A DNA stretch of 64,000 nucleotides from Candidatus Altimarinota bacterium. GTDB lineage: Bacteria; Patescibacteriota; Gracilibacteria; BD1-5; UBA6164. The stretch covers positions 62,001 to 126,000 of the forward strand of contig CALREY010000003.1 of the NCBI GenBank assembly GCA_943356435.1, given 5' to 3'. Within the stretch, counting starts at the first letter, position 1, and the number at the start of each line of letters is the position of its first letter. This document shows positions 401 to 52,239 of the stretch, one piece after another. Below the pieces are notes generated by a model. It saw only the letters and a list, made by a program, of their open reading frames with translations, was not told the origin of the DNA and did not search any database. A program made the translations under genes and the position numbers.

Positions 401-1615
401 TTAGATTTTTTCAGCAGCCGCATCCATATTTGCTTTTTTGATGGATGCGTCAACTTGATTTTTCAGTTTAAGCAACAGGTCTTCGGCGGCACGACGATTT
501 TCAGCTGATTGTTTTTCGTTTTCACGATCAGTTTCAATAGCTGTAATAGTAGATTCCACCAAAGACTCAATTTCTTGAGCTCTTTTCAAAGCAAGACCTT
601 GACTTTCTTTTGCCACATTTACGACTTCATCGACGATTTCGGTAGTGTGCTTGTTCAGTCTAGATTCCACTTCATCGAGAGCTTGACGGTCTTTTTGAGC
701 TTCTTTCGTTTCGTACAGAGCAATCAGCTCGACTATTGAGGCTTTGAGTTTCGGTATTACGAATAGAATACCTCTGACAATGCCTTCGATTTCGATTTTG
801 ATTGCGTCCTGTGTTCTACGAACACGAGGAATAGTGACAGATGAAGCTTCCACATAGGCAAGTTTCAGCTGTATAAATCTCGTGTCAAAACTTGCTATTT
901 GTTGGTAAATGTCTCTTACATCTTGTAGTTTGAGTGTATCGTTACTTTGTAATGCAGCCTTGGCAAGTTCATCGTACTCAGCTTTGGCTTTTTTCAGAAT
1001 GTCTTCACCGGCTGCAATGTAGATGCGGATACCGTTGATTTGCTCGATTGTTGCATTGCGCAATTTATCGAGTTTATCACTTTCATTGGTCAGTGTTTGG
1101 ATGCGATTGTTGTATTTCTCAACCAGCTCATCAAACTTTTGAACAATTGTATCTTGACTTTGCATCAGGTAATTTACATAGTCAGCGATACCACCGAGTG
1201 CTTCGATAATACCAGAAAACAACTTTGTAAGTTTCCCTTGACCATGTATAATTTGCTCTTTGGTTTGATCCAATTTCAGTAAATCTATGCCGTCATTGAG
1301 TTCGATTGCCAATTGACCAGCCAGACCAGCGTCTTTTGTCTTAATACCAGCTAAGAGTTGATCCAAAATGCTATTGAATGCATTTTGTGGTGCAGCACCG
1401 TAATACAAGTTTGCAGCAGTGTTCATGATGTCATGACCAGCTACAATTTTCTCGACTTCAGCCAAATCAGAGGGTGACATCTCATCGCGATTGATGAGTT
1501 CATCGTCACCTTTGGTTTCGATTACCATCGGTAAATTTGCTGTACCACCAGTAGCAAATACATTAGCGTCAGCGATAGTGGCAGATTCAGTAGTTGATTG
1601 TTGTTGTTCACTCAT
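401..1615 (-). CDS. telA: TelA-family toxic anion resistance protein
   Basis: A 404-residue, almost wholly alpha-helical cytoplasmic protein with the length and long coiled-coil helices of the TelA/KlaA family (PF05816). The acidic N terminus is followed by helical segments from about residue 60 to the end. The family is linked to tellurite and other stress loci, but its biochemical role is unsettled. The stop is TAA and the start overlaps an operon with the XpaC-like gene only 1 nt upstream (TAA, then ATG), so the two are probably co-translated. TelA next to XpaC is a recurrent pairing in bacteria. No internal TGA occurs in 404 codons, unlike genes right of 9 kb. Confidence 0.85.
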   Translation of the reverse strand: MSEQQQSTTESATIADANVFATGGTANLPMVIETKGDDELINRDEMSPSDLAEVEKIVAGHDIMNTAANLYYGAAPQNAFNSILDQLLAGIKTKDAGLAGQLAIELNDGIDLLKLDQTKEQIIHGQGKLTKLFSGIIEALGGIADYVNYLMQSQDTIVQKFDELVEKYNNRIQTLTNESDKLDKLRNATIEQINGIRIYIAAGEDILKKAKAEYDELAKAALQSNDTLKLQDVRDIYQQIASFDTRFIQLKLAYVEASSVTIPRVRRTQDAIKIEIEGIVRGILFVIPKLKASIVELIALYETKEAQKDRQALDEVESRLNKHTTEIVDEVVNVAKESQGLALKRAQEIESLVESTITAIETDRENEKQSAENRRAAEDLLLKLKNQVDASIKKANMDAAAEKI

Positions 1616-1616
1616 T

Positions 1617-2423
1617 TTAAGCCCCTTTTTCAGGTAAATAAAGATTGGTTTTGTTTGCTAAATCAGATGCTTGATTTCTCAAGTTTTCCAGAGCTAGTGC
1701 TTTGGACATATCTGAAATATTAGCTACTTTTACAGTTAATTCAGCCAGACCTGTGAGGGTCTTTTCTACTTCGTTTATTAGTATTTCAACTTCATTTTCT
1801 TGTGTTTCCTTTAAATTTATTTGGTTTAAAAATGGTTGTTTTTCAGCATCATTATCAGCTGAATTGATAGATCTATTTAAACTATCTACATCAATCGTTT
1901 GAACAGAGCGGTACTTCGATAGAGCTTCCATTAGCTTGTTTAGTACTGCTAAATTTATTTGTTCAGCAATACTTAAATACTCGCCATGGCTAATACTGTT
2001 TTCAAAAAATTTTTCTCCTAGTACTTTTTTAAAGTTGATAAAAAAATCGTTAATTTTTTCTACCTGTTCAGCAGGAGTATCAAGATTGAACTCTTTGAAC
2101 TCACTTATCAGATAATCAGATAGGTCCTTGATATTTTGCTCTCTCAGCTTTTCGTGTTGTTTCAAGTAATCAAACTCATGTCTGTTTTTCCGTAGAAAAA
2201 TATCCAAAAACAAGTTTCCTAATCCAACACTAGTAAGTAATATGCAAACTATAGACCAAATCTTGATTGATATACCAAACCAAACAGAGCCAATCATAAA
2301 CAAGCCAGTTCCTGATACTACTGTACCAAGAGTAATTGGATTGTTTATGATACGGCTTTTTCTGTATTTTTCGGCTTCTGCTGAACTGACAGGTAACAAG
2401 GTTGGAACCTTTCTGTCAGTCAT
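1617..2423 (-). CDS. XpaC-like membrane protein paired with TelA
   Basis: A 268-residue protein with two adjacent transmembrane helices (about residues 28-72) and a long soluble helical C-terminal region. This layout, and its place directly upstream of telA, fit the XpaC family (5-bromo-4-chloroindolyl phosphate hydrolysis protein, PF10112), which commonly accompanies TelA. Family assignment rests on layout and context more than on motifs. Stop TAA; no internal TGA. It likely anchors or partners TelA at the inner face of the membrane. Confidence 0.6.
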   Translation of the reverse strand: MTDRKVPTLLPVSSAEAEKYRKSRIINNPITLGTVVSGTGLFMIGSVWFGISIKIWSIVCILLTSVGLGNLFLDIFLRKNRHEFDYLKQHEKLREQNIKDLSDYLISEFKEFNLDTPAEQVEKINDFFINFKKVLGEKFFENSISHGEYLSIAEQINLAVLNKLMEALSKYRSVQTIDVDSLNRSINSADNDAEKQPFLNQINLKETQENEVEILINEVEKTLTGLAELTVKVANISDMSKALALENLRNQASDLANKTNLYLPEKGA

Positions 2424-2436
2424 TTAAACTCCTTAG

Positions 2437-4068
2437 CTATCTAGCTGTATTTTTTAAAATAAAATGAACTTGTCTCAATCTACCACCATATGACCGAGTC
2501 GATTCGTTAACTTGCATTGGTATTACTTTTTTTACATTTTCAGGACTAGGTATGATTACTCTCACTCTATTCCTATCTATGTTGTAATTACTGATAATGT
2601 ATTCCATTACATTTCTAGCTCTCCTCTCTGCTGTTTGTTTCTCATCTTCGAGATCTGTAGCATTTGAAAAATAACCAGGAGTTAATTCAATACGGAAGTT
2701 CGGATAATGTCTGAGTTCATCCATTATCTCATCCAAGAGTTCATTTGAGTTTTCACTCAAACTACTATCTCCTGAAAGAAATATTATTGGTTTTGCTTTT
2801 AATTCTCCTACTTCTACCAAATCATTCCATTGTTCGTCTGTTAATTGACTAAATGGGTGAGTTAGCGAATCAGTAACAGTGTTTTTGTCCGATTGCTGTG
2901 AGTATCCTCCTAGCAAGTAAAGTTTACGGATTATCGTACTGTTGATAATTTTTGTGAAATCAAATCCTTTCAAATGATCCTTGTGAGATTCATCTTCCTT
3001 GATTATATTTCTTGCATTTTCATGTGCTTCTAGTAGACCAAAGTATTTTTGACCAGCTAAACCGAACCAATTTTCTGCATTATCACGCAGATTTACCCAT
3101 TTCACTCCAGCTATCATCGATGTAATTTCTTCATCAGATAGACCACTTAAGCCAGCATATTCATCGAGGAAAGACTTGGATTGCTCCAATAAAAGACTAT
3201 TGTCATCTTTTAGCTTTTGCAATACATCGAAGTATTCATCGATTATAGTTTCTAGATGAGCATACTTTGAATTATTTTCCTCCAATAATTTACGATTGAC
3301 AAGAAGTAAATCAACTATGTCTTTATCAGCATTTCTAGATGAATAAAGTTCTACTGTACCTTCCAGAGCTAAAAGTTTGCTTTTCCATGGTTCCCATGTA
3401 GTTATTATGCATACTTCTTTGTTCCGAAATTTTTCATAGATTTCTTTATCCGACTCTCCACCGACATACCAAGGTTTATCAGTTTTTAGTAATGCATCTA
3501 CACCGAAATCTCGACCAATTGTCCTGACTTGTTGATGACTTGGAGTATTTTCCAAATATGCCATTTTCCATCCATCAGGATTAGTAGCACTAAAATGAGG
3601 CTTGGAATTCAAATCTGAAATTTTTGATATTCCACAATCCTTCCAAGCAATGGTAGAATCTCCACCATGTGACTCATCAATGACCAAAACTTCAACACCA
3701 ATCAACTCGTTTTTAATTCTGTTTAATTGATGTGCATCAGCAGTAATTACCGCAAAATCGATTTCACCATTATTCAATGCTTCAATTCTTTTTTGGTAAT
3801 CACCTTTATCTGATATCCATTGTAAATCTATTCCCTTTACTCTCAAATTGTTTTGAAGCAGATTTGATGCTATAGGAATATAACCAGGCCATCCATCCAA
3901 ATTACCATGAAAACTGACTTTTATGTTTTCAGCATCACTTGTTTTGAGTGTTATTTCTTCATTGAGCTTATTTTTGTAAAAGAAAGTAGCACCGGCTGTA
4001 AGTAAAAATATTAAAAGTACCGATATGGCAACTTTTAAACCCGTATTTGAATTTTCTTCAGGATACAT
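2437..4068 (-). CDS. Solute-binding domain fused to OmpA-like peptidoglycan-binding domain
   Basis: A 543-residue protein: one N-terminal transmembrane anchor (residues 12-30), then a periplasmic NMT1/SBP-like binding domain (about 45-330; G-Y-I-P-I-A and G-E-I-D-F-A-V-I-T-A-D are typical), a linker, and an OmpA-type C-terminal domain (about 410-540) with A-E-R-R-A-R-N-V-M-E-Y-I, the conserved peptidoglycan-binding helix. An SBP tethered to membrane and wall suggests an envelope sensor rather than a transporter subunit; no permease or ATPase is visible. It is transcribed toward XpaC and TelA and is probably in their operon. Stop TAG. A shortened copy follows immediately upstream. Confidence 0.8.
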   Translation of the reverse strand: MYPEENSNTGLKVAISVLLIFLLTAGATFFYKNKLNEEITLKTSDAENIKVSFHGNLDGWPGYIPIASNLLQNNLRVKGIDLQWISDKGDYQKRIEALNNGEIDFAVITADAHQLNRIKNELIGVEVLVIDESHGGDSTIAWKDCGISKISDLNSKPHFSATNPDGWKMAYLENTPSHQQVRTIGRDFGVDALLKTDKPWYVGGESDKEIYEKFRNKEVCIITTWEPWKSKLLALEGTVELYSSRNADKDIVDLLLVNRKLLEENNSKYAHLETIIDEYFDVLQKLKDDNSLLLEQSKSFLDEYAGLSGLSDEEITSMIAGVKWVNLRDNAENWFGLAGQKYFGLLEAHENARNIIKEDESHKDHLKGFDFTKIINSTIIRKLYLLGGYSQQSDKNTVTDSLTHPFSQLTDEQWNDLVEVGELKAKPIIFLSGDSSLSENSNELLDEIMDELRHYPNFRIELTPGYFSNATDLEDEKQTAERRARNVMEYIISNYNIDRNRVRVIIPSPENVKKVIPMQVNESTRSYGGRLRQVHFILKNTAR

Positions 4069-4078
4069 TTAACGCTCC

Positions 4079-4138
4079 AAAAGTTCCCATATAGGGACTT
4101 GTTTAAAAGGAGAAGCAATTAATACGAATACTAATTGT
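4079..4138. repeat. Duplicated hairpin block, copy 1
   Basis: An AGTTCC/AGGGACT palindrome followed by a GGAGAAGCAATTA/TAATTGTTCC inverted repeat. Nearly the same block recurs at 4490-4553, so it was carried along in the tandem duplication of the adjacent gene. It may act as a terminator on the minus strand. Confidence 0.7.
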
Positions 4139-4478
4139 TCCATATTGATGATTTATAATCATCTTTTAGCTTATGCAATACATCGAAGTATTCATCGATA
4201 ATTGTTTCTAAATAAGCGAACTTTGGATTGTTTTCATCGAGAATTGCTTTATTAATTTGCAAATCGACTTTATCTTTGTCAGTATTTCTAGATGAATTAA
4301 GTTCAACTGTACCTTCCAGAGCTAAAAGTTTGCTTTTCAATGGTTCCCACATAGTTATTATGCATACTTCTTTGTTCTGAAAATTTCCAAAGAAATTAGT
4401 TCCAGCTATTACAAAAAATAATAAAAGTACCGATATGGCAACTTTTAAACCCTTATTTGAATTTTGCTCAGTATACAT
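4131..4478 (-). pseudogene. Decayed tandem copy of the SBP-OmpA gene
   Basis: This 115-codon frame is a remnant duplicate of the 2437-4068 gene. Residues 1-28 match its N terminus (shared N-S-N and G-L-K-V-A-I-S-V-L-L), then the sequence jumps to the region of residues 210-290 (shared N-K-E-V-C-I-I-T and K-S-K-L-L-A-L-E-G-T-V-E-L), after which it stops. The binding cleft and whole OmpA domain are missing, so it is most likely nonfunctional although still open. Similar leader DNA and hairpins lie before both copies, supporting tandem duplication followed by internal deletion. Confidence 0.75.
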
Positions 4479-4489
4479 TTATATCTCCA

Positions 4490-4553
4490 AAAGTTCCCGT
4501 ATAGGGACTCGTTTAAAATGAGGAGCAATTAGTACGAATACTAATCGCTCCTT
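4490..4553. repeat. Duplicated hairpin block, copy 2; probable terminator of the VWA gene
   Basis: Inverted repeat GGAGCGATTAGTA-TTCG-TACTAATTGCTCC on the minus strand, with a stable TTCG loop and a following T-rich stretch, sits just after the VWA stop codon. The second palindrome and overall block repeat those at 4079-4138. Confidence 0.7.
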
Positions 4554-4561
4554 GTTAGTGA

Positions 4562-5290
4562 CTACCAGCTATCACCGAGATTCAAGTGTGACATGTCACC
4601 TTTGAAATCTATCTCAGCTAAAACTGACTTGAATGCTTCAGATAATTCACCAGAATTTTCCACAGTTTTGAAATCCATACCTGGTCTTTTTAAGATATCC
4701 AGATTGGCACAAAAACCTATTGCATGGACCATTACAGGTGTTTTATCAATGAAGTAATCCAGGTATTTAGCAGTAATCTGCTCGCTGTCAGGTATTCCAT
4801 CACCCAAGATAACTATGTGATATTTACCATTGGATTTTTGAGCTTTAGCTTGAGCAGTAATACTTTGGTTTGCCCAAGCTAGTGCGCTGTCCATAGGTGT
4901 ACCACCACCAGATTTTAGCTTATTTATGCCAGCCAAAACCTGATTTTTATCTGTGCTTAAAGGTGTATCTATTTTCGAACTAGATCCGAAGTGAATAAGA
5001 CCGACATTAGCATTTTCAGGAATCTTGTTTAGAAATTCCTTAGCTGCTTTTATAGCTTCGCCAAATTTTTGCTTTCCACCACAACTACCTTCCATGCTTC
5101 CACTTGTATCAATTAATAACAATACATTTGTAGCAAACAAGTCATTTGCGATAGTGACTACTTCGTTATCAGCGATTTTGCCTGGCCATTCATGAATACT
5201 GCCAGCTATCACTTCTGTTTCAATCGTTTTTGACTCGATATCACAAGCTGTTAATAGTAGCAGTAAAAACGGTATGATTATTTTTTTCAT
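4562..5290 (-). CDS. VWA-domain lipoprotein
   Basis: A 242-residue exported protein. A short hydrophobic leader ends in the lipobox L-L-T-A-C (Cys16), so it should be lipid-anchored. The von Willebrand A domain spans about residues 53-230, with the intact metal-binding MIDAS motif D-T-S-G-S-M, the later threonine in G-G-G-T-P-M-D, and the aspartate in I-L-G-D-G. VWA domains bind proteins through a divalent metal. In this cluster it probably interacts with the solute-binding or OmpA-domain partners on the envelope. Start has a clear SD-like GGGAGA upstream. Stop TAG. Confidence 0.85.
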   Translation of the reverse strand: MKKIIIPFLLLLLTACDIESKTIETEVIAGSIHEWPGKIADNEVVTIANDLFATNVLLLIDTSGSMEGSCGGKQKFGEAIKAAKEFLNKIPENANVGLIHFGSSSKIDTPLSTDKNQVLAGINKLKSGGGTPMDSALAWANQSITAQAKAQKSNGKYHIVILGDGIPDSEQITAKYLDYFIDKTPVMVHAIGFCANLDILKRPGMDFKTVENSGELSEAFKSVLAEIDFKGDMSHLNLGDSW

Positions 5291-5302
5291 ACTATTCTCC
5301 CT

Positions 5303-7060
5303 TTACCATTGCACGCCAGTTGTTAGGTCAATTTCCCCGTCCATGTTATGGGCTGAGAAAACGGCTCTTCTATTTTGTTTAGCTATATCACTGCTGCTTG
5401 GAAAACAAGGTTCAACAGTATCTACTCCATGATATGAGTATTTGCAAGTGCCGTTTATAGGACTTTTTACACCCATACCTTGAGGTACAACATTTGTAAA
5501 ACTGATATTGTAACCTTTTGAGTTCACACTGTTTTGCAACGCTTGAAACATCTCGTTTGCACGTCTTTGTGATGAATCTTGAGCTGCTTGAAGAGTATTT
5601 TTCCAAACTTGTGCATCAACACCATTACCATACTGTGCCTGCAATTTATCTCTTAGAGCTTTAGGAAAATTTGCAGGTAAAACCGCAACTCCATATTTTT
5701 CCAAGAGGTATTTTGATGGGTCAGCATGAGCTGTGATTGTTGAAATACTACCACTGCTTTTTGCCATGATGTTGAAAGTATCGTTAAATTGCTGTGTGTA
5801 TAAATCAGCATTGAAGTCATTATCATTGGCATCAAAGTTGATTGTAATACTTACAAAACCATCATCCAAGTGACCTTCGCTTGCTAGTTTTGAAACCACT
5901 CTTGCAACATCAGCTTGTTTAAAAGTCTGTACTTCTACACCGAATTGTTCATTCAGTCCATTTTTCAGGCCGTCCCAATTGTGTTTGAAAGTAGTGATTT
6001 GAGATGCTCTGTTTGAGTTTTTTAGTATTCCCATTTCGCTCAAGCTTTTTGTTACTTCAGATAATTGAGAAGTCAAACAGTTTGCTTCTTTTTTACCATT
6101 ACCAGCATCACATGTAGCGTATTTGTAGTTACCTGTCCATCCTGCCATGGTGAGATCGTATAAATACATATCACCGATTGCAGAGATGAAGTTTGGATCA
6201 TTTGCTGCTTCAAACAGTACTTCTGCACCTTTTTCTTTCAGTTTTTGCCAATCAGAGGAGCTTGCTTTGGCTAATTCACGAGTTTTTTCATTTGCAATCA
6301 ATAAGTCATGAGCTAGTTTTGCAACTTCATCTGGATTAGCATCGCTGTATTCTTTTGTAACCCATACATGGTCTGTAATGGAGTTACGAAGAGTAGCAGT
6401 TGTAACTATGATTGAGCCATTTGTAGCTTTAGCGTCATCGCTTTTCAGGTCTACGGTGATACCAAAAGAGCCATCTAGCTCACCACCGATAAATGCATTT
6501 ACTGCACTTTCTTTGGTTTTGCTATCTAGACCCAAGTCTTTGTACCATACATACTGAATTGGACTGCCTTTTGGACATTCAGCCATTGAATTGACTGTTG
6601 AAGCCAAGTCCATGTGTGGACCACCTAATTGTAAACCAATCTTTTTACCGCATAAATCGGAAAAATTCTTGATTTCTTTTTTTACAATCAGGCCGTCACC
6701 ACCTGTCGAGTCTGAGTACTTGTATAACCAGACAAGACACTTATCACTTTTTTCACATAGTGCATCAGATGCATATGCTGCTTGTCCGAGTGTACCACGA
6801 AAAAAAGGTGTTTTACCTGATCTAACATCGTTGATTTGTGCAATGATATCGTTTTGTAGGTGGATTTTGTAGCCTGATTGGATTGCTGTAATATCAGCCC
6901 CCCATAAAATCACAGGTAACTCATTCCCACTTACATTTCCAGTCGGTAAAAGTTTTTGCTCAGAGGCAGAGATTGCCTTGAGTGTTTGTGTTTTTGCTGC
7001 GCTCGAGTTTTGTGACAGGATCACAAAAAACAAGCATAAAAGTATTTTAATTACTTTCAT
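5303..7060 (-). CDS. Large periplasmic binding protein (NMT1-like)
   Basis: A 585-residue secreted protein. I start it at the ATG preceded by AAGGGG (position 7060), which gives a clean signal peptide (M-K-V-I-K-I-L-L ... S-S-A-A); an upstream in-frame ATG would add 16 residues before it. The N-terminal half resembles periplasmic binding proteins (P-V-I-L-W-G-A-D, then L-Q-L-G-G-P-H and D-G-S-F-G-I). Paired cysteines near residues 87/92, 127/152 and 306/316 suggest disulfides. The C-terminal 200 residues are of unrecognised type, with L-N-E-Q-F-G-V-E-V, and include N-R-R-A-V-F-S. It heads the minus-strand cluster. No TGA in 586 codons. Confidence 0.65.
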   Translation of the reverse strand: MKVIKILLCLFFVILSQNSSAAKTQTLKAISASEQKLLPTGNVSGNELPVILWGADITAIQSGYKIHLQNDIIAQINDVRSGKTPFFRGTLGQAAYASDALCEKSDKCLVWLYKYSDSTGGDGLIVKKEIKNFSDLCGKKIGLQLGGPHMDLASTVNSMAECPKGSPIQYVWYKDLGLDSKTKESAVNAFIGGELDGSFGITVDLKSDDAKATNGSIIVTTATLRNSITDHVWVTKEYSDANPDEVAKLAHDLLIANEKTRELAKASSSDWQKLKEKGAEVLFEAANDPNFISAIGDMYLYDLTMAGWTGNYKYATCDAGNGKKEANCLTSQLSEVTKSLSEMGILKNSNRASQITTFKHNWDGLKNGLNEQFGVEVQTFKQADVARVVSKLASEGHLDDGFVSITINFDANDNDFNADLYTQQFNDTFNIMAKSSGSISTITAHADPSKYLLEKYGVAVLPANFPKALRDKLQAQYGNGVDAQVWKNTLQAAQDSSQRRANEMFQALQNSVNSKGYNISFTNVVPQGMGVKSPINGTCKYSYHGVDTVEPCFPSSSDIAKQNRRAVFSAHNMDGEIDLTTGVQW

Positions 7061-7140
7061 ATTTTTCCCCTTAAATAGTTTATCAAAAAATGTTAATGAG
7101 CCTGCCAAAAATTAGCTGGCAGATAATACATAAAAAATAT

Positions 7141-12721: not shown

Positions 12722-13450
12722 TTAATTTTTTATGTTATTAAATCAGTCTTCTGCTGCTTTTTCTTGTGCTTTTTTCTTACTAGAACCTGTTCATTTTCCT
12801 ATCATTTTTTCTCATAAATATACTCCTACTTCAAATGTTTTATCATGATCAAGTCATGATTCACTCAGTACAACATAATTTGGAGTTATTTCATAAATAG
12901 CTTGAGCATATTCTTGAATAGTAGTTTTGTAATCTTTTATTAGATTATGCTCTATTATATCATTTACATATGGGTAAATATGAATATTGATGAAACTAGT
13001 AGCAACATCCAATCATAAATCTATATATATAGCACCAATCATAGCCTCAACTACATTTGCTAGTAAATAATCATTTTTTCTACCTCATGTTAATTCTTCT
13101 CATTTTCATAGTACTAAATATTCAGCAAAATTTAGATTTTTTGCTGTTTTTGCTAAGTTTGTTCATCTAACTAATGCACTTCTAATATCTGTTAATTCTC
13201 ACTCAGATTTTTTCGGATAATCTCTAAATAGATTATTTGTAACTACTAGTTCTAATACAGCATCTCACAAAAACTCTAGTCTCTCATTGTGTTCTGGTGT
13301 ATAATCTGGTCTTTCATTTACTACTGATCTATGTATAAATGCTAATATATAGTGTGAAATATCATTGAATTTGATATTCAATTTATTCAGCATTTTTTCA
13401 AATTTTTCTATTAAAGCCTCACTGTGAATAGCTTTTTTCTTAACTACCAT
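12722..13450 (-). CDS. rnc: Ribonuclease III
   Basis: 242 residues. The catalytic RNase III domain (about 1-155) has H-N-E-R-L-E-F-L-G-D-A-V-L-E (positions near 55-68, with the metal-binding Glu and Asp) and the second-site E-A-x-x-G-A-I-Y-I-D. A double-stranded RNA-binding domain follows (about 165-240; ending G-S-S-K-K-K-A-Q-E-K-A-A). It processes rRNA precursors and other duplex RNA. It is the first gene of the rnc-yggT-ftsW/rodA-mutS-holA run. It overlaps the 5-prime end of yggT's leader by sharing AT-rich bases only. Confidence 0.92.
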
Positions 13451-13488
13451 TTTATAAAATTGTATTTAAAATAATATTGAAAACATTA

Positions 13489-13540
13489 AACCCTTTCCTG
13501 AATCCTTACCCTTAATTAAGGGTAAGGGGCTACAAATAGG
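13489..13540. repeat. GC-rich palindromic repeat (intergenic)
   Basis: Core CCTTACCC-ttaattaa-GGGTAAGG (13504-13528) preceded by the TCCTGAATCC box. It belongs to a family seen eight more times in the window and stands out as GC-rich in AT-rich surroundings. Confidence 0.8.
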
Positions 13541-13661: not shown

Positions 13662-13696
13662 GAAAAAACCAAACAATTTTTTGTTTGGTTTTTTGT
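13662..13696. terminator. Terminator of pilin-like adhesin A
   Basis: AAAAAACCAAACAA/TTGTTTGGTTTTTT perfect stem, downstream of the TAA at 13702 on the minus strand, with T-run. Confidence 0.8.
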
Positions 13697-13701
13697 GTTA
13701 A

Positions 13702-15483
13702 TTATTTGATATACAATGTTCAAGAGTTATTTGCTATTGTTCAATCATTTGGTCATAGACAAACGTGGTAAGTTGAAGCATTATAGAAATAATTTACTTT
13801 ATTAGCACTACTTCAGGCAAAGTCTGCTGATAATCATCTCGCTCAAGCAGTAGCTCATCAAGAATATGATGTATCTGAAAAACTACTTGATCATCATACA
13901 CAGTTTCAACTTGCATTCGTAGCTGCACTAAATGTACATGAAGTCCTAAAATACCTAGTTATTACATTTGCTAAATAACCACATGTCATTCTATAAGCAT
14001 TTGTATTACTAGATAAACTTTTAATTGCATTTATTTGTGTGTCTGATAACTTACTTGGCCTATTTGAAGGAGTAGGTGTTCATCAAGCTGCTGCTGATCA
14101 TAAAAGTGTATTACTTGCATCATATCAAATAGAAGCTGCTAGAGTTAGCCCTCCTCAATCATTTGTCATATCACAGTATACTTTAAATTCAGTGTTAGAA
14201 TCAGGTTTTATCCAATATATTCAGTCTCATGTTGCTCATGCATATGATTTTCAAGAACCTGGATTTATATATGTATTACATGTTGTAGCAAATGAACCAT
14301 CACTCCATGTTCTACCTGCTGTATCATCTCATGTAATAGTTAATGGTATTACATCACATGTGCTTGTTCCACTATTCCAGCTATATCCAGAATCACAAGA
14401 ATAATAACAAGGATTTAAAGAATTTGTATTTTGCCGTCATTGATTATCAACTGTTGGAGTTCAGTCAGTAAATGTAGCATTTGCCACTGCTGGTGGTAAT
14501 GCACAAGAATATGTAATTACTGTATTATTACTACTTGATGCATTAGATACTTTCACACTTCCACCTAAATCATTTTTTACTAAATATGTAGATACATACT
14601 CTGTTGCTACACTATCACTTGTATTTGTATTTAGTACTTGAGATATTTCTCATACATTTACTAGACTTGTTCCTGTATAGGCTAATTGCAATTTTTGTAT
14701 TAGTTGTTGTCTAGCTGTTACTCATGTACTAGTAGAATCTGATAATACTGATATATCTCAACTAAATACTAACAGACTTCCACTATTTACTAGATTCAGA
14801 TTTGTTTCTGGATTTGTATTGTATGAACCACTATATTGATATGGTAAGTTTTTGTAACCATCATAGGCTAGATAATTATTGTTTACTATTGTATCTACTG
14901 TTGATCATGTTGTTGTCATTATACTTGGCATAGCTAGTATATATGTAGTTGCTCATGAGCTTACTTTTAATACTTTTCCATTATAGCTTCAACTCAATTT
15001 CAATTTTGCTGTTTTTGTTGCTGCTTCTACTTGTAGCTGCTCCTTCCCTAATTTTAGGGAAGCTTGGGATGGGTTAAGGTAGCTCAATGTTTCTCCTTCA
15101 AATGCTCATGCTAATTGGAATTCATTTCTAGGTCACGTAGTACTATATACATATTCTTTATCTGTAGATGGATCTTTTGGTACTTTATCTAGTTTTGATA
15201 CATTTGCATACACAGTATCTCCAAATGTTCATTGTGTCCATGCTGTTGCTCCACTATATATGATTGCTGTTTCATTACTTGGTATTGGATATCTTCATGA
15301 TTCTAGATTGAATAGTTCTAGTGAACTTTTCATACTACTCATATCTGATAATCTAGTACTATCTCTGGCATCTGCACTATATCAACTCAGTGATATAAAT
15401 GCTATTGTACCAAGTATTGCTAGAATTGTAATTACCACTATTAGTTCTACTAATGTGAAGGCTTTTATTTTTTGTATATTCAT
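13702..15483 (-). CDS. Pilin-like adhesin A: prepilin leader plus fibrinogen-like C-terminal domain
   Basis: 593 residues. The type IV prepilin signal K-A-F-T-L-V-E-L-I-V-V-I-T-I-L is at residues 7-21: cleavage should precede Phe, and Glu5 of the mature protein is present. A pilin head, a linker holding a translated palindromic repeat (near residue 135-150) and a stalk follow. A Cys-rich G-Y-S-W-N-S-G-T-S-T-C turn leads to a fibrinogen-like domain from about residue 400 to the end: Y-W-I-K-P-D-S-N, then V-Y-C-D-M-T-N-D-G-G-G-L-T, which is the family signature, with later Cys and Gly-rich strands. Such domains bind sugars or acetylated ligands. Many glycines are UGA. Likely a surface or pilus-tip adhesin. 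Confidence 0.85.
15040..15082. repeat. Palindromic repeat translated inside pilin-like adhesin A
   Basis: CTTCCCTAATTTTAGGGAAG (15043-15062) with a flanking GGGTTAAGG arm. The frame passes through it unbroken, encoding roughly N-P-S-Q-A-S-L-K-L-G-K-E within the linker of the pilin. Confidence 0.75.
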
Positions 15484-15522
15484 AGAATAATTGTTATTTT
15501 TTAAACCTATTAATTATACAAA

Positions 15523-15565
15523 AAAAACTGAAATGAGGAAATTTATTACTTCATTTCAGTTTGAC
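15523..15565. terminator. Terminator after the Asn-rich secreted protein
   Basis: AAACTGAAATGA/TCATTTCAGTTT stem with A-run and T-run, between the secreted-protein stop and the start of the pilin gene. Confidence 0.75.
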
Positions 15566-15596
15566 ACATTATGTTAATAGTATTTATAATGTTTAA

Positions 15597-16973
15597 TTAT
15601 TTTACAGAAACAGAATTAAACTCTATTCTGTTATTTCAATATGTTACATAAGCATCATATACTCATCTGATAAATAGTGATAGATTTTGTGTATAGTTCA
15701 ATAATCCATTACTTCTTGTTATATTCCATCATTCGTCTATTAAATTGTATTCTCCTCAATTATAGTTCAAGAAAAATCTAGGGTTATATCATTCTGGTAT
15801 AGTGAAATATGCTTTTAATTTTTGTTTAGAGATAAGAGTTAGATTTCCTCACTCTGTTCTTTTTATTACTTGTCTGAAGCTATTTGATTTTCTCAGTATT
15901 CAATCAGCACTTACATATTTGAAATATCATTCATATACTCAAGCAGGTATTCACATAATAGTTATTTTGTATCATGCTCTTTTATTTGTATTCCCTACTT
16001 TGTATTCCTCCCATTTATTACTTATTTTCACACAATCTTTTCAAATCACACAAAAACTAATATTATTTCTATTCAATTCTGTATTTGCAATGATAGTTAA
16101 TATATTATCATCTGATATATAACTATCAGCTGTAACTGTTCAATTTATATTGTTAGAATTATTGTTATTATTATTTGAATTACTATTTGAATTATTATTG
16201 TCTATTTTTGCAGGATATACATAAAAAACACTGTTATTGTATCTCTTGTATCCATTACAAGCACTATCAGTAGTGATGAAAAAATCTTGTCATTTATAAC
16301 AATTATATATAGCAATTTTTCAGTTATCAGAATTGTTTCCAGAGTATCATATTAATTTGCTTGTTGGATTGTAAGTGATGTATCCATCAGCTCATTCTCA
16401 TCATAGATATACTGCTGTTGTTCCACTTACATTTTTGCTACTAAGTACATATACAGAGTCAACATATTCTCCATCATGAGTTATTACGGAATTAACTGAA
16501 CTATTAGTAGAATATTTCAAATAATATTTACCAGTTTTATTGTTGAATGTTCTATATAAATATACTTTTGCTATATTAGTAGTAGATACATTTGTGTTAT
16601 TATTATTATTTGTATTGTTTTGATTTGTATTGTTTGGTTTTTTGTATGTAGTGTTATTTGTATTTGTTGTACTTAAATTGAACAAATAATTCAAATCACA
16701 TCTAGCATTTTTTTCACACTTCAAATAATAGTATTTATTATCACTTCTGAAACATTCAGATCTATCATAATAATTAGCAGTATTACTATAATTTTTTATA
16801 TTATCTTTACATAATTGTTCTGATCTATGAGCAGCAGATATGAAATACCCTTTGTCTAATAATTGGTTTATTTTAGCAGAGTCCACATTGTATACTGCAT
16901 AAGTAGTATTTCAAAATACTAATAATGAAATAAATGATAATAGTAAACTAATAAATAATTTATTGCTCAGCAT
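15597..16973 (-). CDS. Asn-rich secreted protein of unknown function
   Basis: 458 residues. A signal peptide (M-L-S-N-K-L-F then a hydrophobic run ending near residue 26) is followed by a Cys-containing helical segment (residues 30-90) and two long asparagine/threonine linkers, at about 98-120 and again near residue 260. Between and after these lie beta-rich segments full of Tyr, Gly and Ser. I do not recognise a family. Linker-separated modules suggest a surface protein. It is upstream of pilin-like adhesin A but separated by a terminator. Confidence 0.7.
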
Positions 16974-17097: not shown

Positions 17098-17583
17098 CTA
17101 CCTCTTAAACACACTCTCCACTATCTCACTATAATCATTTTCTTTTAATTTATCTAATTCTTCTATATCTTGTAATACTTTGTTTAATACCCCATTTACT
17201 ATTTTTTTTGATGAGTCGTCTCAGTAAACTTTTGCTACTTCTACAGCTTCGTTTATAGATACTTTACCTGGTATTTCTTCTGTTAAGAAAAACATTTCTG
17301 CTAGTCATATATATATAGGTAATATGTATGATAAACTCATTGTTTTTACATTGAATTTAGGTGTATATTTCTTTAGTATGCTAATGAAAAATGCTTCATA
17401 ATGTGTAATTATTTTTCTCATTTCTGTTAAATATTCATCATCTGGTGTGAATGTAAATACATCAGAAAAAAATGATTCTCTAAATAAATCTTTATTAAAC
17501 TCATTTAGCGACATAGCATACAACTCCTGAAATAACAATTTCCTACTTTTCCTACGATTAACTATGTTTATTGTATTTGTCAT
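17098..17583 (-). CDS. nusB: Transcription antitermination factor NusB
   Basis: 161 residues, wholly helical, with the NusB pattern: N-terminal R-R-K-S-R-K-L-L-F-Q-E-L-Y-A-M (R-x-x-A-x-x-x-L-Y in the family) and C-terminal I-S-I-N/V-S-I-N-E-A-V-E-V-A-K-V-Y, then F-V/I-V-N-G-V-L-N-K-V. NusB with NusE (S10) binds boxA RNA and prevents early termination in rRNA operons. It lies close to rpmF on the same strand, separated by a hairpin. Confidence 0.9.
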
Positions 17584-21026: not shown

Positions 21027-23354
21027 TTAATTTTTAAAACATCTAATAGGTAATCAAAATGAGCGATTCATAGAAAAATATACTTTTATATCAGTCGGTG
21101 ATACATCTAATCTATATGCATCATTTCATGTAGGTGTTGAAGCCCAATATTGTACATAATTTCAGTCTCACATTTGATACATTACTCAATCAGATCTATG
21201 ACGATATCATGAATTTGCTATTTTTAAATCACTCATCATTTGTCATCCATTTGTTCACCATCATCATGTATTTACTAGATTTGACCACTCTATTTGTGTT
21301 GGTACATGATATCATGGCTCACATGGTCACTGCATTGCTTCTTTTGTATTAGTATTGTTTCACCATAAATCATCGTTTTTTACACTACTCCAATCATATG
21401 GTGTTGACATAGATGCTCATCAAATAAAATTAGTATTGTTATAATAATTGCTTGGTCAATATGATGATCAATCTACTAAACTAGTAGTAGGTGTTATAGT
21501 TCAACTAAATGTTCATCAATTATTTCACCATTGGAAATATTTCCCATATGAGCTAGTTCATGTTCCAGATACTGTAGATCATACATTACAAGCAGATAAA
21601 GTATATCATAATCAAGGTCAACTACATACAATAATATCTGGACTACTACATCAGTTATATGTAGTTGAAGCATTAATTATTTGTCATGTACTTGTACAAC
21701 TACTTATAGTATTAGTTTTTTCTCATTTTATACATCTTACACTATATGCAAAACTCTTACTACCAGCTTGACGTCAAACAGTATTATTTCATAGTATAAT
21801 TTTACGTATAAATTGTACAGTATCATGATAAGAATCTGCTGTCCATAAAGAAGTATTTATTCAACGTGATGAAAATGAAGTTCAATCAGTATTACGTTGT
21901 CAAGCTAAAGGTAATTTTAAAAAATTTACTAAGTTTGTATCATCTGTTTTTAAATTATGTCAAAACCATCATAGTCAATTACAAAAAAATCAAGTAGTTG
22001 TATACCTACATTTAGATTTATTTAAGTTGTCTTCTAATAATTCCCAGTCATTATCTGTTGGTACTTTCCGTCAAGAAGGACATGCTGAATCCATATTATA
22101 TCATGTATACAATTTTCACCATATATTATCTACTTCAGTATCTCAATTTGTTGTATTTCAAATATACCAAAGATTTGCTTTATAATTGCTAGTCATTCAA
22201 GTGCTATAACTATTACAATTACTAGTATTACTTACTCAGTCATAGTTTGGGTAACAGTTTGTAATAGTTCAATCTATTCAATTATCTTGTTTTCACCATT
22301 CTATACCATTTCATAATGTAGAATTACATCATGCCCAAGTTTGTCATCATAGACTTATATCTGGATTATTACAATTAGAGTCCAATGTTTGCCATCAAGA
22401 TACTACTGAATTTCCGCTAATTTCCAATTTTGCTCACAGAGTATTATTTACGAAACTTGCAGCATAATTTAGCAAATCTTGACTTGGATTATTTGTATCT
22501 ATAGTTAAATCTGATATATTTTTTATCTCTCACTCATTTTGTACTATCGATCAACTATAAGCGTCTTTTAATCATTTTACTAAGTTTACTCTAGCAGTAT
22601 AGCTAGTAGTATCAGTTAATGGAGAACAACTAGATGCATCAGAGTATGCTAATAAGTTATTAGTAGTGAAATCAAATCAAGCATCATGTTTAAATTTGCT
22701 TCATTTGAAAGTACTAGGTAGGTTTTTATATTTATTATATACCAATTTTTTTTCTGTAACTATTTGTTGTAAATCAGTTACGCTAGTATCATTAGTAATA
22801 ATAGTAGGAATACTTAATACATTACAAGTTGAACCAGATAATGATTTAGCCATAGTTCAATTATAATTTCATGTAGTATATGCTATTGCTTCTACTTCTC
22901 CAGCATTGGTTTGTGAAACTACATTATTCATTATTCATTTTTCATTATTCATTGATATTTCATCCCCTTCCATAATTCATCATAATTCAAATTCATTTTG
23001 AGAAGTTATAACTGAATAAGTATATTCTTTATCAGTTATTGGATCTAGAGGTATTTTATCTAATTTTGATGTATTAGTATATACTGTTTCTCAAAAAGTT
23101 CATTGATTCCAAACAACAGCTCAGCTATATGTAATATTTACTCAAGATGTAGGATTTGGGTATTTTCAAGCATCTAAATGAAATAATTCAAGAGAGGTTT
23201 TCATAGACGAAATGTCAGACAATCTAGTACTATCTCTAGCATCAGTACTATATCATTGTAGGCTTATAAACGCTATAGTTCATAATATTGAAAGAATAGT
23301 AATTACTACTATAAGCTCTACTAAAGTGAAGGCATTTTTATATTTTTTATTCAT
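21027..23354 (-). CDS. Pilin-like adhesin B: prepilin leader plus two FISUMP domains
   Basis: 775 residues. Prepilin signal N-A-F-T-L-V-E-L-I-V-V-I-T-I-L at residues 7-21. Head and stalk resemble the other three large pilins here. Two C-terminal modules are FISUMP (Fibrobacter succinogenes major paralogous) domains: first about 365-540 with P-S-G-R-K-V-P-T-D-N-D-W-E-L-L, L-P-L-A-G and F-A-Y-S-V-R-C-I-K; second about 545-775 with G-P-C-E-P-G-Y-H-V-P-T-Q-I-E-W, Y-W-A-S-T-P-T-G-N and final G-L-P-I-R-C-F-K-N. FISUMP domains are found on bacterial surface proteins. Dozens of UGA glycines. Likely displayed on the cell surface or pilus. Confidence 0.85.
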
Positions 23355-39235: not shown

Positions 39236-39263
39236 TTTTAATTTTTTTATTTTAACCAATAAA

Positions 39264-44994: not shown

Positions 44995-47838
44995 TTAGTT
45001 ACAAATTTTTGATATTTTAGTTACATTGAATGCATTATTGTTTGAAGTATATATATTTCATGAATTATCTAAAGTTATTGACCATGGTCAAGTTCAAGTT
45101 GTTCATAATGTAGAAGATACTCCAGCTGATGTAATTCTTGTAACGTTACTAGATGAAGTATTTGCTGTATATACATTTCACGAACTATCAACTGCAATTC
45201 AACGTGGAGAAGATCAAGTAGTTCAAATGATGGTAGAAACTCAAGCAGGTGTTATTTTAGATACATCATTACCTAATTCATTTGCTGTATATAAGTTTCA
45301 TGACGAGTCTATAGTAATTCAACGAGGAGCTGATCAAGATGTAGAAAATGTAGTACTTATTCAACTAGGAGTAATTTTGGTAATATTGTGAGAATAAGTA
45401 TTTGATGTATATATATTTCATGAGCTATCTAAAATTATTCAATATGGATTATTTCATGTAGTTCAATGAGTTGTAGCTATTCATGCAGGTGTAATTTTTG
45501 TAACATTATTAGAAGACCAATTTGCAGTATAAACATTTCCTAGATTATCAACTGTTATTCATTGAGGATTTGTTCATGTAGTTCATAAAATTGTACTTAC
45601 TCATGCTGGTGTTATTTTTGATACATTATTAGAAGACCAATTGGATACATATAAGTTTCAAGAATTGTCTATAGTTATTCAACGTGGATTTGTTCATGTA
45701 GAAGCAAAAGTACTATAAACTCAATCTGGAGTTATTTTTGTTACATTATTTCACCAATAGTTTGTAGTATAAATATTCCCAGACGAATCAACCACTATTC
45801 ATTCAGGCCAATCTGAAGTTTGACCATAAGTTGATGATACTCATCATTGTGTTATTTTAGTTACATTGTGAGATCAGTTGTTTGTTACAAATATATTTCA
45901 AGTACTATCAACAACCAATTCCCACGGATAAGTTTTTGCAGTTCAAAGAATAGATGAAACTCAAGCAGGAGTAATTTTAGTAACGTTACTAGAACTTCTA
46001 TTTGCAACATAGATATTACCTGATGAGTCTCTAGCTATTCAACGAGGTTCAGTTCATGCCGTACCAAATGTACTTGATACTCATGCATTGGTAATTTTTG
46101 TTACATTATTTCATCAACTATTTGCTGTGAATATATTACCAGAAGGATCAATAAGTAAAGAACGTGGAAAAGATCAAGTAGTTCATAAAGTACTAGATAC
46201 TCAAGCAGGTGTAATTTTCGTTACATTATTTGAATTAGTGTTAGCTGTATACACATTTCAAGCTGAGTCAACTCATATTCAATATGGATTTGTTCAAGTA
46301 GTTCAATGTATAGTAGAAACTCAAGATGGAGTAATTTTTGAAACATTATTTGATGTCCAATTAGACGTAAATATGTTTCAAGATCCGTCCATAGTTATAA
46401 AATATGGATTTGTACCTGTAGTTCAAAGAATAGTAGATACTCAAGCAGGAGTAATTTTTGAAACATTATTTGATGTCCAGTTAGCAGTATAGATGTTTCA
46501 AGAACTATCCATAACTAGTCCACGAGGATTTGTTCAAGTAGATGCATATATACTATGAACTCAACTAGGAGTAATTTTTATAATTTTATTTGTTGTAAAA
46601 CTAGTTACATATTTATTTCATGAAGAATCAATTATTATTCATTCTGGATAATCTCAAGTAGCTCACATATTTGCACTTGAATATGAATAACTACAAGCAC
46701 TATTACAATCTATTCAAGTGTATCCAGAATTGCATGAATAATAACATGCTGATGAACTATTTGAATTTTGCCATGATTGATTTTCTTGAGTAGCAATTCA
46801 TGGAGAAAATGTAGCATTTATATAATTTGGTTGTGAAGCACATGTATAAATAGCTCAAGAATTTATTCATCACTGTACAATTACTGATCATCATAGTACA
46901 TTGTTTACGAAATTTCAAGCATAATTAACAGTAGATTGACTAGGGTTATTCATATCAATTGCTAAATTTACAATATTATGTATTTCTCATACATTTTGTA
47001 ATATTGTACCACTATATGCATCTTGTAATCATTTTATTAATTTTATTCTCTCTGTACTTGTAGTATTACTTGTTAGGTCATTACAACTTCAAGTATTTGT
47101 ATATGCAATTAATTTGTTAGTAGAAAAATTAAATCAAGCAATAGTATTAAATTTGCTCGACTTAAATGAACTAGGTAGATTATTATATCAATTATAAACA
47201 AGTCTTTGTTCACTCATTATTTGTGATAAATCAGTAACACTTGTGTCATTAGTTATTATTGAAGGTAATGTAATCATATTACATGTAGTTCAACTCAGAC
47301 TTTTTGCTGTCAATCAATTGTAATTACCTGTAACATATGCTATTGCTTCTATTGTTCATGCTGAAACCCCTCTTCATTCTCCCCTTGTCAAAGGCGATGA
47401 GGCTACATTATTCACTATTCATTTTTCAATATTCATTGATATACTATCCCCTTCCATTATTCATCATATTTCATATTCATTTCTATTTAAAGTTACTGAA
47501 TATGTATATTCTTTATTTGCAATGGGATCAGATGGAATTTTATCTAATTTAGTCGTATTTATAAAAACTGATTCTCAAAAAGTTCATTGTTTCCAAACTG
47601 TCGATCAACTATAACTAATATCTACTTGATTCGTAGGAATAGGATATTTTCAAGACTCTAATTCAAACAATTCTAGAGATGTTTTAATACTTGATATATC
47701 ACTTATTCTAGTGCTATCTCTTGCTTGTGTACTGTATCATTGTAGTGATATAAACGCTATTGTTCATAGAATAGCTAATATAGTAATAACAACAATTAGT
47801 TCAACTAATGTAAAAGCTTTAATTTTTTGTATATGCAT
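44995..47838 (-). CDS. Pilin-like adhesin C: prepilin leader plus 14 beta-propeller repeats
   Basis: 947 residues. Prepilin motif K-A-F-T-L-V-E-L is at residues 7-14 and is followed by the shared head and stalk, a linker with a translated palindromic repeat (near residue 150-165) and a Cys-rich turn. Then from about residue 386 to the end come fourteen 40-residue repeats, period exactly 120 nt, such as G-T-N-P-Y-G-I ... V-D-S-A-G-N-V-Y-T-A-N and N-N-V-T-K-I-T-P-A-G-V, an NHL/SBBP-type propeller blade. Fourteen blades fit two seven-bladed propellers. Propellers bind proteins or glycans, so a surface adhesin is likely. PilT lies divergently 129 nt away. Confidence 0.85.
45001..46681 (-). repeat. 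14 direct 120-nt repeats encoding propeller blades
   Basis: Recurring T-C-A-A-G-C-A-G-G-A/T-like box at 45121, 45241, 45361 and on every 120 nt to 46561. Copies differ by many point changes but have no indels, so the period is preserved at the codon level. These are coding repeats, not a CRISPR array. Confidence 0.9.
47366..47402. repeat. Palindromic repeat translated inside pilin-like adhesin C
   Basis: ACCCCTCTTCATTCTCCCCTTGTCAAAGGCGATGAGG with CCTTTG/CAAAGG core, read in frame as S-S-P-L-T-R-G-E-G-R-G-V-S, in the same linker position as the repeat in pilin A. Confidence 0.75.
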
Positions 47839-47967: not shown

Positions 47968-49065
47968 ATGACTACTAAAGAACTTATAAATAATATCTTG
48001 GCTTATACTACACAAGAACATTATTCAGACATACATATCACATCAAATAGTAAAATAATGATCAGAGATAGATCATGAGAAATTATTGCATTGGATAATT
48101 TGAATATAGATTGAAAAGTATTGGAATTACCAACAATGAATAAAATAGCTGTTAAAACTGTTATGTTAGAAATAATCTGAGAAAAATGATATCAAGTATT
48201 TGAAAGAGATATGGAATATGATAGCTCTTTTATGATAAAGTGATGAGATAGATATAGAGTGAATTGTTATATGGATACTGAATGATTTTCTATTGCTCTT
48301 AGAAGAATCCCAAATAAAATACCTACTCTAGAAGAATTATGACTTTGAGAACAAATAGAGACAATGTGTAATAAATCTAAATGATTAATCCTAGTTACAT
48401 GACCTACTGGTTCTGGTAAATCAACGAACCTTGCAGCGATGATAGATTACATAAATAAAACACAAAAAAAACATATAATAACTATAGAAGATCCAGTAGA
48501 ATTTTCTTTTAAATCAAATAAATCACTAATAAATCAAAGAGAAGTAGGTAATCATACTAAATGATTTGAAGCTGCAATTAGAGCGTCTCTGAGAGAAGAT
48601 CCGAATGTAATAATGGTATGAGAAATGAGAGATCCAGAAACAATCAAAGCAGCTATTACATTAGCTGAGACATGACATCTAGTATTCTCTACTCTTCATA
48701 CTAATGATTCAGTTCAAACTATAGATAGAATAGTTGATATATTTCCATGAAATCAACAAAATCAAATCAGAATGCAACTAGCTATGAACTTGGTATGAGT
48801 AGTATCTCAAAGACTATTATCTAGATCGGACCAAGAGTGAAGAATTGCAGCTAGAGAAATACTTATATCAAATGATGCTGTGAGAAATCTTATTATTACA
48901 GGAAAAACTCATCAATTGTATAGTGTACTTGAAGTATGACATAAACAATGAATGATACTTATGGATAAATATTTAATGGCTTTATATAAGAAAAATATAA
49001 TCTCAAAAGAAACTCTTATGAGTTATGCAAGAGATAAAGAGTGAATAGAAATGATGCTTAATTAA
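47968..49065 (+). CDS. pilT: Pilus retraction ATPase PilT-like
   Basis: 365 residues. N-terminal PAS-like domain, then Walker [14 protein letters not shown] (first glycine TGA), Asp box I-E-D-P-V-E-F, Walker B-like V-G-E-M-R-D-P-E-T, and the His box [16 protein letters not shown] is a PilT hallmark. PilT powers retraction of type IV pili. It is divergent from pilin-like adhesin C and leads the pair with the cNMP-like gene. No PilB, PilC or prepilin peptidase is in the window. Confidence 0.95.
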
Positions 49066-50040: not shown

Positions 50041-52239
50041 TTACCATTCTCAAATAAATTTATTAGTATCATAATCTACTCAGTCAGTTCAGTAAAGATA
50101 TGGAATATTTGTATTTACATCATCTTTTACAGGTCTAATTTGTTTTGGAATACCTGATCAAAATGTAAATGTTTCATTTCAATTAAATGTTAATCATGTA
50201 ATTCTTTCCTTTAGACTTGAATTCCATCATGAAACAGAAGGTATAACAGCTACAGTATTACTAAATGTTCATGAAGTAACATATGTTCAATCAGAAAATA
50301 TTGATGATCAAGTACCCGCAACAGGAGTTTTATTTCTACTATTTCAGTAATTCTTATATGTTCAATAATATTTGAATCATGTATGTCAATCACTATAACT
50401 ATAATATCACCAATCTGAATTATTATACGAAGAACAATTATTATAAGCAGTTGCATTGTAATAAAATCATACATTATTACTAAATGCTACTACATTATTA
50501 AATATTGATCAATATGTTCATCATATTCATTCAGATCTGAATCAGTATCAATTATTAAAAGCTACAGCATTATTTACATATGATCACCATCATTGATTAT
50601 TAAAATAAGCATATGATCAATTATTATATCATAGAAAATTATTAATAGTAACATATGATGAATTGTTTTGTAATGTTAATCAATATTGACTATTATTAAA
50701 AACTATTACATTATTTATATTATTATAAAGACTTCAATTTAAATATACTCAATATGCATGATTATATGATTTAATATTAGTAAAGTTTCAATAATATGAA
50801 TTATTATAAAGTAATCAATATCATCACTCATGAGTAGTAATATCTTTAAATGTCATGTAATATGTAGATACTACATAAACAGAAAAATCAGTAAAATTTT
50901 TTATTTCAGTATTCCCTAAATACTGATTATATTTACTAGAACTATATGTTGAATTATTATAAAATATTCATGTTAATGCACTACTATTTCAATTAAAATC
51001 AATATTTGATATTACTGTATTTCATCATGTTACATTTATTGTTTGTGTATGTGTACCATTAGCTATAAGAGTTACATTTCATTCTCATATAAGAGCACTA
51101 CAAGCATTCATTGTCATAGCTGATACGCTATAGCTTCATTCTTTTACTAAATATACAGTATTTGCAGCAAGTGTTGTAGGTATTGTATCACCAGAATTAA
51201 TAGTAATTTTTGTAATATTACTTACTACACAAGGATTACTATTCCAATTTGTTGTAAATGGTGAACTAGTACCAAATACATAATCAGGAGTTACATTTAC
51301 TACAGTTGGTGCTTTATTATCTCACGCGATAATATTTCAACCAAATATTTTATTTACATAATTTCAAGCTAAGTCTATTGCTTCTTGACTTGGGGAATTA
51401 GTATTGATAGTTAATTGAGAAATATTACTTATCTCTCAAGCATTTTCTACTATACTTCCACTATATCAATCCTTTAATCACTTTAGTAATGCTACTCTAG
51501 CACTATAATCTGTTTTATCCGTTAATAATGAACAATTTGATGTATCACTATAGGCATTTAACTTACTAGTAACAAAATCAAATCATCAATCTTGTTTGAA
51601 TTTTGATCCTGTAAATGAACTAGGTAGATTTTTATATCATTTATATACTAGTTTTTTTTGTGTAACTAATTGTTGTAAATCTGTTGTACTAGTATCATTA
51701 GCAATTATTGAAGGTAAAGTTAATACATTACAAGTATTTCCACTAAGAGATTTTGCCATCATTCAATTATAGTTACCACTTGTAAAAGCAAAAGCTTCTG
51801 TATTTCAAGCGTTAGCTTTATTTTGAAACAAGTTCACTATCAAATCATCTGATTCAGTTATTCATCACAATTCAAACTCATTTCTAGTAGATATAACAGA
51901 ATATGTATATTCTTTATCAGTTAATGGATCAGTTGGTATATGGCTTATATGTCAGACATTTGCGAATACTTTTTCTCAAAAAGTTCATTGATTCCATACT
52001 GTTGCTCAACTGTAAGTGATATTTACTCAGTTTGAAGGCATAGGGTATTTCCCTGCATCTAGTTGATATAATTCTAGAGATGCTTTCATGGATTCTATAT
52101 CACCTATTCTTACTCAATCTCTTGCCTGTGCTGAATATCCAGAATATGAAAAAAATCATATAGTTCATAGTATTGCTAGTATTGTAATAACAACAATTAG
52201 TTCAACTAGAGTAAAAGCTTTATTTTTTATTTTTTGCAT
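50041..52239 (-). CDS. Pilin-like adhesin D: prepilin leader plus beta-helix domain
   Basis: 732 residues. Prepilin motif K-A-F-T-L-V-E-L-I-V-V-I-T-I-L is at residues 8-22; the shared head and stalk follow. From about residue 340 to 650 the sequence repeats a N-N-spaced strand pattern (V-F-N-N-S-Q-Y-G-L-T-L, A-V-A-F-N-N-G-Y-G-F, V-V-A-F-S-N-N-V-G-F-Y), the right-handed parallel beta-helix seen in pectate-lyase-fold proteins; an N-terminal I-T-I-N-S-G-D-T-I segment caps it. It ends with F-N-G-N-E-T-F-T-F-G-S-G. Beta-helices often degrade or bind polysaccharide; here binding on a pilus is inferred. Convergent with the pilT pair. Confidence 0.8.

Follow-up and report, generated by a model that had tools for sequence, protein, structure and literature searches.

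The 13702-15483 gene, on the reverse strand of the 64-kb stretch of DNA analysed here (the window), encodes a 593-aa protein that is probably a modular type IV pilus (T4P) adhesin, one of a large, reshuffled repertoire of heads for attachment to partners. Our computations establish a prepilin leader, a pilin domain and a fibrinogen-related domain (FReD) fold in this protein, the size of the family to which it belongs, the decoupling of heads from stems, and gain and loss of pilin genes at individual loci. By analogy, such proteins would be assembled into pili, bind ligands and attach the cell to host or prey cells.

A type IV pilin with a fibrinogen-related head

Read with translation table 25, the reverse-strand ORF contains 34 TGA codons for Gly. 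The choice of code matters, since the standard code would break the ORF 34 times. The encoded protein begins with a type IV prepilin leader and continues through a GspG-like pilin part and stem (residues ~1-315) and a Cys-rich linker to an FReD (residues ~396-593). The following features were assigned to the gene and its flanks.

13702..15483 (-): gene for a modular type IV pilin of 593 aa, read with genetic code 25
15397..15483 (-): residues 1-29, prepilin leader (MNIQKIKA/FTLVE...) with the hydrophobic helix; PF07963 above cut-off, phmmer matches to geopilin and GspG
15112..15381 (-): GspG/T2SSG-like pilin domain, residues 35-124; PF08334 at 21.8 bits, cut-off 21
14539..15111 (-): remaining conserved stem, residues 125-315, common to more than 50 paralogues, without a Pfam family
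14350..14521 (-): Cys-rich linker, residues ~321-378, from sequence
13705..14298 (-): fibrinogen-related domain (GGGWT_bact), residues ~396-593, with its motif at 434-446; from family models, profile and structure model
15484..15596 (-): upstream hairpin and promoter-like TATAAT, from sequence comparison
13663..13694 (-): intrinsic terminator, also present at the empty site of congeners and ancestral to the upstream gene

The pilin part scores above the cut-offs of both Pfam N_methyl (residues 5-29) and T2SSG (residues 35-124). TIGR02532 is above its cut-off as well as PF07963, and the leader is of class III (prepilin) with the E5 residue in place; E13 is invariant across 43 paralogues. The phmmer matches to geopilin and GspG cover the pilin part. 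T4P assembly machinery is encoded in the genome, with four full T2SSE ATPases, shorter PilT-like ones and one prepilin peptidase (A24), and the protein carries an extra non-pilin C-terminal module, as modular pilins do. A model of the stem from an 8-sequence alignment has a poor fold (pTM 0.17).

An FReD at the end of a prepilin had been proposed in the initial annotation from the motif VYCDMTNDGGGLT in the code-25 frame. That motif lies at residues 434-446, immediately preceded by YWIKP, and family models, a PDB profile search and the predicted fold all support the domain. Fibrinogen_C (PF00147) passes narrowly, with 22.1 bits against a gathering cut-off of 22 for residues 415-448, a match that spans only positions 11-45 of the 221 in the profile (35 positions). 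The NCBIfam model GGGWT_bact (NF040941) is clearly above its cut-off over the same residues (45.7 bits against 30). In a phmmer search, the head matched intelectins first (best E 8e-4), followed by angiopoietin, FIBCD1 and fibrinogen chains.

We searched 84,980 species genomes for relatives of the head (residues 383-593) and of 17 heads from its own and related genomes. Head relatives are encoded by 374 of the 528 pattern matches, in bacterial and archaeal genomes; the 80 of these 374 that were retained represent Auribacterota, Deltaproteobacteria, Myxococcales, Bdellovibrionales, Saprospiraceae, Elusimicrobia and others. Domains from these loci that align over most of the window head (n = 72) were combined with it into a 73-sequence profile. 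Against the PDB, this profile matches Xenopus XEEL (E 9e-16), tenascin FReDs (E 2e-14, positions 37-211), MFAP4, techylectin, ficolins and fibrinogen. An AlphaFold model of the head from the 73-sequence alignment has a pLDDT of 76.8 and a pTM of 0.81. FReDs are its best Foldseek matches, and all 50 matches listed by VIA-align are FReDs, the best of them with Z 11-12 over ~160 residues (ANGPTL2: Z 12.0, rmsd 3.2, 162 residues, with FIBCD1, ficolins and tachylectin 5A close). The full-length profile and the model rule out a partial FReD, as might have been read from the 35-position Pfam match. Based on sequence profile and predicted fold, we conclude that the bacterial domain is a true FReD and that residues ~396-593, as modelled, form a complete one.

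The C402/C437 pair, invariant in the 73 sequences, is kept in the window head, and the conserved Trp of GGGW is replaced by Leu. A calcium site and a final Cys had also been suggested as points to check, and neither is present: residues 381-593 contain no DxD motif, hence the canonical FReD calcium site is missing, and the chain ends in ...GTLYIK with its last Cys at 575. The DxD[ND] motif occurs in only 3 of 73 bacterial relatives. Because the site is absent from the window head and rare among its relatives, we do not file the head as a ficolin-type Ca-dependent lectin. Model residues 141-200, around the usual pocket, are of low confidence (pLDDT 53-68), and a hypervariable region lies downstream of the conserved FReD start in the heads.

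The initial view of FReDs as mainly animal domains is out of date, since the domain is widespread in bacteria, with 374 related bacterial and archaeal loci and an NCBI bacterial family. The statement that fusion to a prepilin leader is unusual holds for bacteria generally, where the combination is rare, but not for the order of the source bacterium, where it is routine. In a GGGWT_bact motif scan, a leader was found in 1 of 83 ORFs, in addition to three code-25 loci with the stem.

A large pilin family in which heads are decoupled from stems

A search of the 1.55-Mb genome with the stem (residues 1-312) gave 59 matches, corresponding to 58 ORFs or contig-end fragments that cover ~102 kb, or 6.6% of the assembly. 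N_methyl was found in 39 of the 43 stem ORFs scanned. The heads recognised among these 43 are GGGWT/FReD (10), FISUMP (8), LamG (6), NHL-type propellers (2), RCC1 (1) and LRR (1). The window itself holds four modular pilins, two of which adjoin a gene for a PilT-like ATPase. The three paralogues and the ATPase gene are listed here.

21027..23354 (-): paralogous pilin with a FISUMP (Fib_succ_major) domain; stem and domain scan
44995..47838 (-): paralogous pilin with an NHL/Vgb-type beta-propeller head; stem and domain scan
50041..52239 (-): paralogous pilin whose head has no Pfam match; stem and domain scan
47968..49065 (+): PilT-like T4P ATPase, adjoining two window pilins; PF00437, E 1.4e-48

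The propeller head of the 44995-47838 pilin is a tandem array of ~120-bp units at 45014-46633, and a 1436-aa pilin at L023:1835-6145 has three Listeria-Bacteroides repeats and two tandem FReDs. Of 58 genomes searched, mostly from the same family or order, 57 contain stems; GGGWT domains occur in 41 of 59 genomes searched, with at most 32 per genome. The highest count seen, 32, is that of G017, a same-family relative with a 1.2-Mb genome.

The closest paralogue of the window gene lies on the same contig (C3:140188-141963). Its stem DNA is 97% identical over ~937 nt that begin immediately behind the start codon and reach roughly codon 315; 22 of the codon differences in this stretch are synonymous and 6 are nonsynonymous. 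The upstream regions of the two genes are unrelated, and the heads have only the general FReD start in common. Contigs C11 and C12 have near-identical linkers at the start and different FReD heads at the end. Mapped onto a 39-stem tree, head type requires 20 changes, compared to a shuffled mean of 20.6 (96 of 200 shuffles were as low). Since the head labels are motif-based, with "other" a mixed class, and the tree was built quickly and leaves many forks open, this result indicates an absence of clustering and not a rate. Judged from these sequences, head type is unlinked to stem phylogeny. It should also be noted that contig ends fall in stem-pilin genes in 13 of 60 cases, with ~4 expected by length (P ~1e-4), as would be expected for repeated or variable DNA.

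Gain and loss of pilin genes at conserved loci

Three congeners lack the pilin at this locus: there, the genes that flank it in the window (the hypothetical gene at 15597-16973 or the nusB-like gene at 17098-17583 on one side, rnc at 12722-13450 on the other) are adjacent. Compared to the nearest congener, the inserted stretch runs from directly behind the stop codon of the hypothetical gene to just before the ancestral terminator. Two repeats were recorded at this locus, one at the insertion edges and one inside the stem.

15593..15602 (left edge) and 13698..13707 (no strand): AAATAATTAA at the insertion edges, from comparison with the nearest congener
15036..15078 (-): palindromic element of ~42 bp in stem coding sequence (LNPSQASLKLGKEQ), from sequence comparison

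Because both copies of AAATAATTAA span a stop codon in AT-rich DNA, the pair is at most suggestive of target duplication and may be a coincidence. The locus may represent either a recent insertion or a loss in the other lineages.

The same pattern extends to the other pilins of the window. The site of the 21027-23354 pilin is empty in congener G001, that of the 44995-47838 pilin in G001-G004, and that of the 50041-52239 pilin in G002 and G003, with a less similar pilin at that place in G001. Each of the four window pilins is missing at its own locus in at least one congener. Conversely, in G003 the homologues of 37782-38597 and 38708-39286 flank a pilin that has no counterpart at this place in the window; in G002, a pilin lies beside the homologue of 38708-39286. 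At three window sites, an intrinsic terminator lies within a few bases after the pilin stop codon. Furthermore, 48 bp of the hairpin/promoter stretch upstream of the window gene recur at 96% identity before another pilin gene (C29:9026-9073).

Given the reassortment of heads and stems and the gain and loss of pilin genes, the lineage appears to keep changing its binding repertoire. Lone pilin genes could be mobile cassettes that settle between stop codon and terminator, with heads swapped between stems or linkers by recombination, in an ongoing combinatorial re-tooling of episymbiont pili for new partners; we regard this model as possible, though rather doubtful. A diversity-generating retroelement was sought and no RVT_1 match was found in the assembly (~90% complete). 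A phage origin was likewise considered; a tblastn search of 50,697 phage records returned no match, and plasmids gave weak, partial matches (Pseudomonas, Methylorubrum).

The palindrome at 15036-15078 recurs with 94-98% identity in other pilin genes, where the flanking sequence is ~70-76% alike. Stem palindromes of ~35-56 bp occur at L032, L122, L023, L127 and L129 and twice each at L124 and L123, and other stems carry different short repeats at the equivalent place. We presume that it resembles the protein-coding palindromic repeats of Rickettsia. An intergenic palindrome at 13488-13540 (CCTTACCCTTAATTAAGGGTAAGG) is absent at the equivalent locus of G003 and has a relative near C1:187 kb (L148:3758-3804).

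At 401-7108 of the window, G+C is 0.33-0.39, compared to ~0.25 elsewhere. The five ORFs in this block (TelA, OmpA-like, VWA lipoprotein-like and two unknown) have no in-frame TGA and therefore read identically under codes 11 and 25. The block may have been transferred recently from a donor that uses the standard code, or it may be a chimeric stretch of the contig.

Proposed role and comparison with known systems

In the mechanism that we propose, the prepilin peptidase would process the leader, and the GspG-like part would enter a type IV pilus as a minor subunit or at its tip. Stem and linker would present the FReD head at the cell surface, where it could bind a ligand, most likely a glycan or a surface protein of another cell, or else other matter; such binding is plausible. 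Repeated reassortment of heads and stems, together with the coming and going of single pilin genes at conserved loci, would change the head repertoire, which might let the lineage switch partners or escape recognition. The leader and pilin domain, the full-length FReD, the T4P machinery, the 58 stem ORFs, the decoupled heads and the empty sites all support an adhesin, as does the proven adhesin role of PilB in S. sanguinis, whose vWA module is reported to mediate adhesion (PMC8179133). The missing animal FReD calcium site, the low confidence of the pocket region and the poorly modelled stem count against it. T4P are also reported to play a part when a CPR epibiont attaches to its host (cited in PMC11452946), and the source bacterium is probably host-dependent.

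The protein could instead belong, as a pseudopilin, to a type II-like apparatus for secretion or competence, with an FReD head that handles secreted substrates or DNA. This would fit the best scores of the pilin part, which are to GspG-type models, and the several ATPases in the genome. However, the score for the GspG major pseudopilin (TIGR01710, 43.9 bits) is under the equivalog cut-off of 88.85, so the pilin part is not GspG itself. More than 50 copies with unrelated ligand-type heads would be superfluous for secretion, and a canonical DNA-binding head was not seen. We therefore consider a pseudopilin unlikely.

We also give little weight to the idea that the heads, instead of being modules selected for their ligands, form a changing coat in which antigenic or phage-receptor variation counters phages or host defence. 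The decoupling of heads from stems, the hypervariable region past the conserved FReD start, whole-gene gain and loss and the concentration of contig ends in pilin genes would all be consistent with such a coat, but the heads have folds known for binding, and their full-length relatives occur in many phyla outside pili. Moreover, a changing coat is compatible with adhesion and the two are not exclusive. It is very improbable that repeated stems in a metagenome bin have produced the mixing of heads and stems as an artefact of assembly, even though contigs often terminate within stem-pilin genes: the window gene lies inside a 155-kb contig, its 593-codon ORF is intact and its stop codon and terminator fit, contig interiors hold many complete paralogues with different heads, congeners independently show the same architecture, and the locus differs from theirs by a clean insertion.

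About a fifteenth of the assembled DNA of this 1.55-Mb genome is devoted to modular pilins. If the heads bind partner cells, they would provide a concrete, testable basis for how supposedly host-dependent, uncultured CPR bacteria choose and change hosts. Bacterial FReD-like domains and modular pilins of Gracilibacteria are both on record already. In the open-access literature, we found no paper describing the combination of FReD and pilin, its scale or the reassortment, nor one on Gracilibacteria with FISUMP or a pilin FReD.

Far from being an animal speciality, the FReD fold is found as a module in a wide range of bacteria. The window head passes the cut-off of NF040941 (GGGWT_bact), whose domain is widespread in bacteria, but most sampled members are not on pilins and the window head has Leu in place of the GGGW Trp. 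With animal FReD lectins (ficolins, FIBCD1, tachylectin 5A, tenascin) it shares the fold, the N-terminal Cys pair and the GGG motif. It differs from them in lacking the DxD calcium site and the terminal Cys, in its low identity (~14-19%) and in being borne on a pilin. Intelectins and XEEL give the best sequence matches of the single protein and of the profile, respectively, in an FReD-like start; this likeness is strongest in the first ~80 residues, and intelectin and XEEL chains are longer.

The closest parallel in architecture is provided by the modular pilins of S. sanguinis, PilB (vWA) and PilC (lectin), which likewise have a prepilin leader, a small pilin part and a bulky C-terminal ligand-type module (PMC8179133). 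Gracilibacteria are already among the species with modular pilins in that report, and the FReD is outside the 15 commonest architectures named in its text. Whereas S. sanguinis, the well-studied case, has two modular pilins, the genome studied here has more than 50 copies despite its small size, with heads reassorted between stems.
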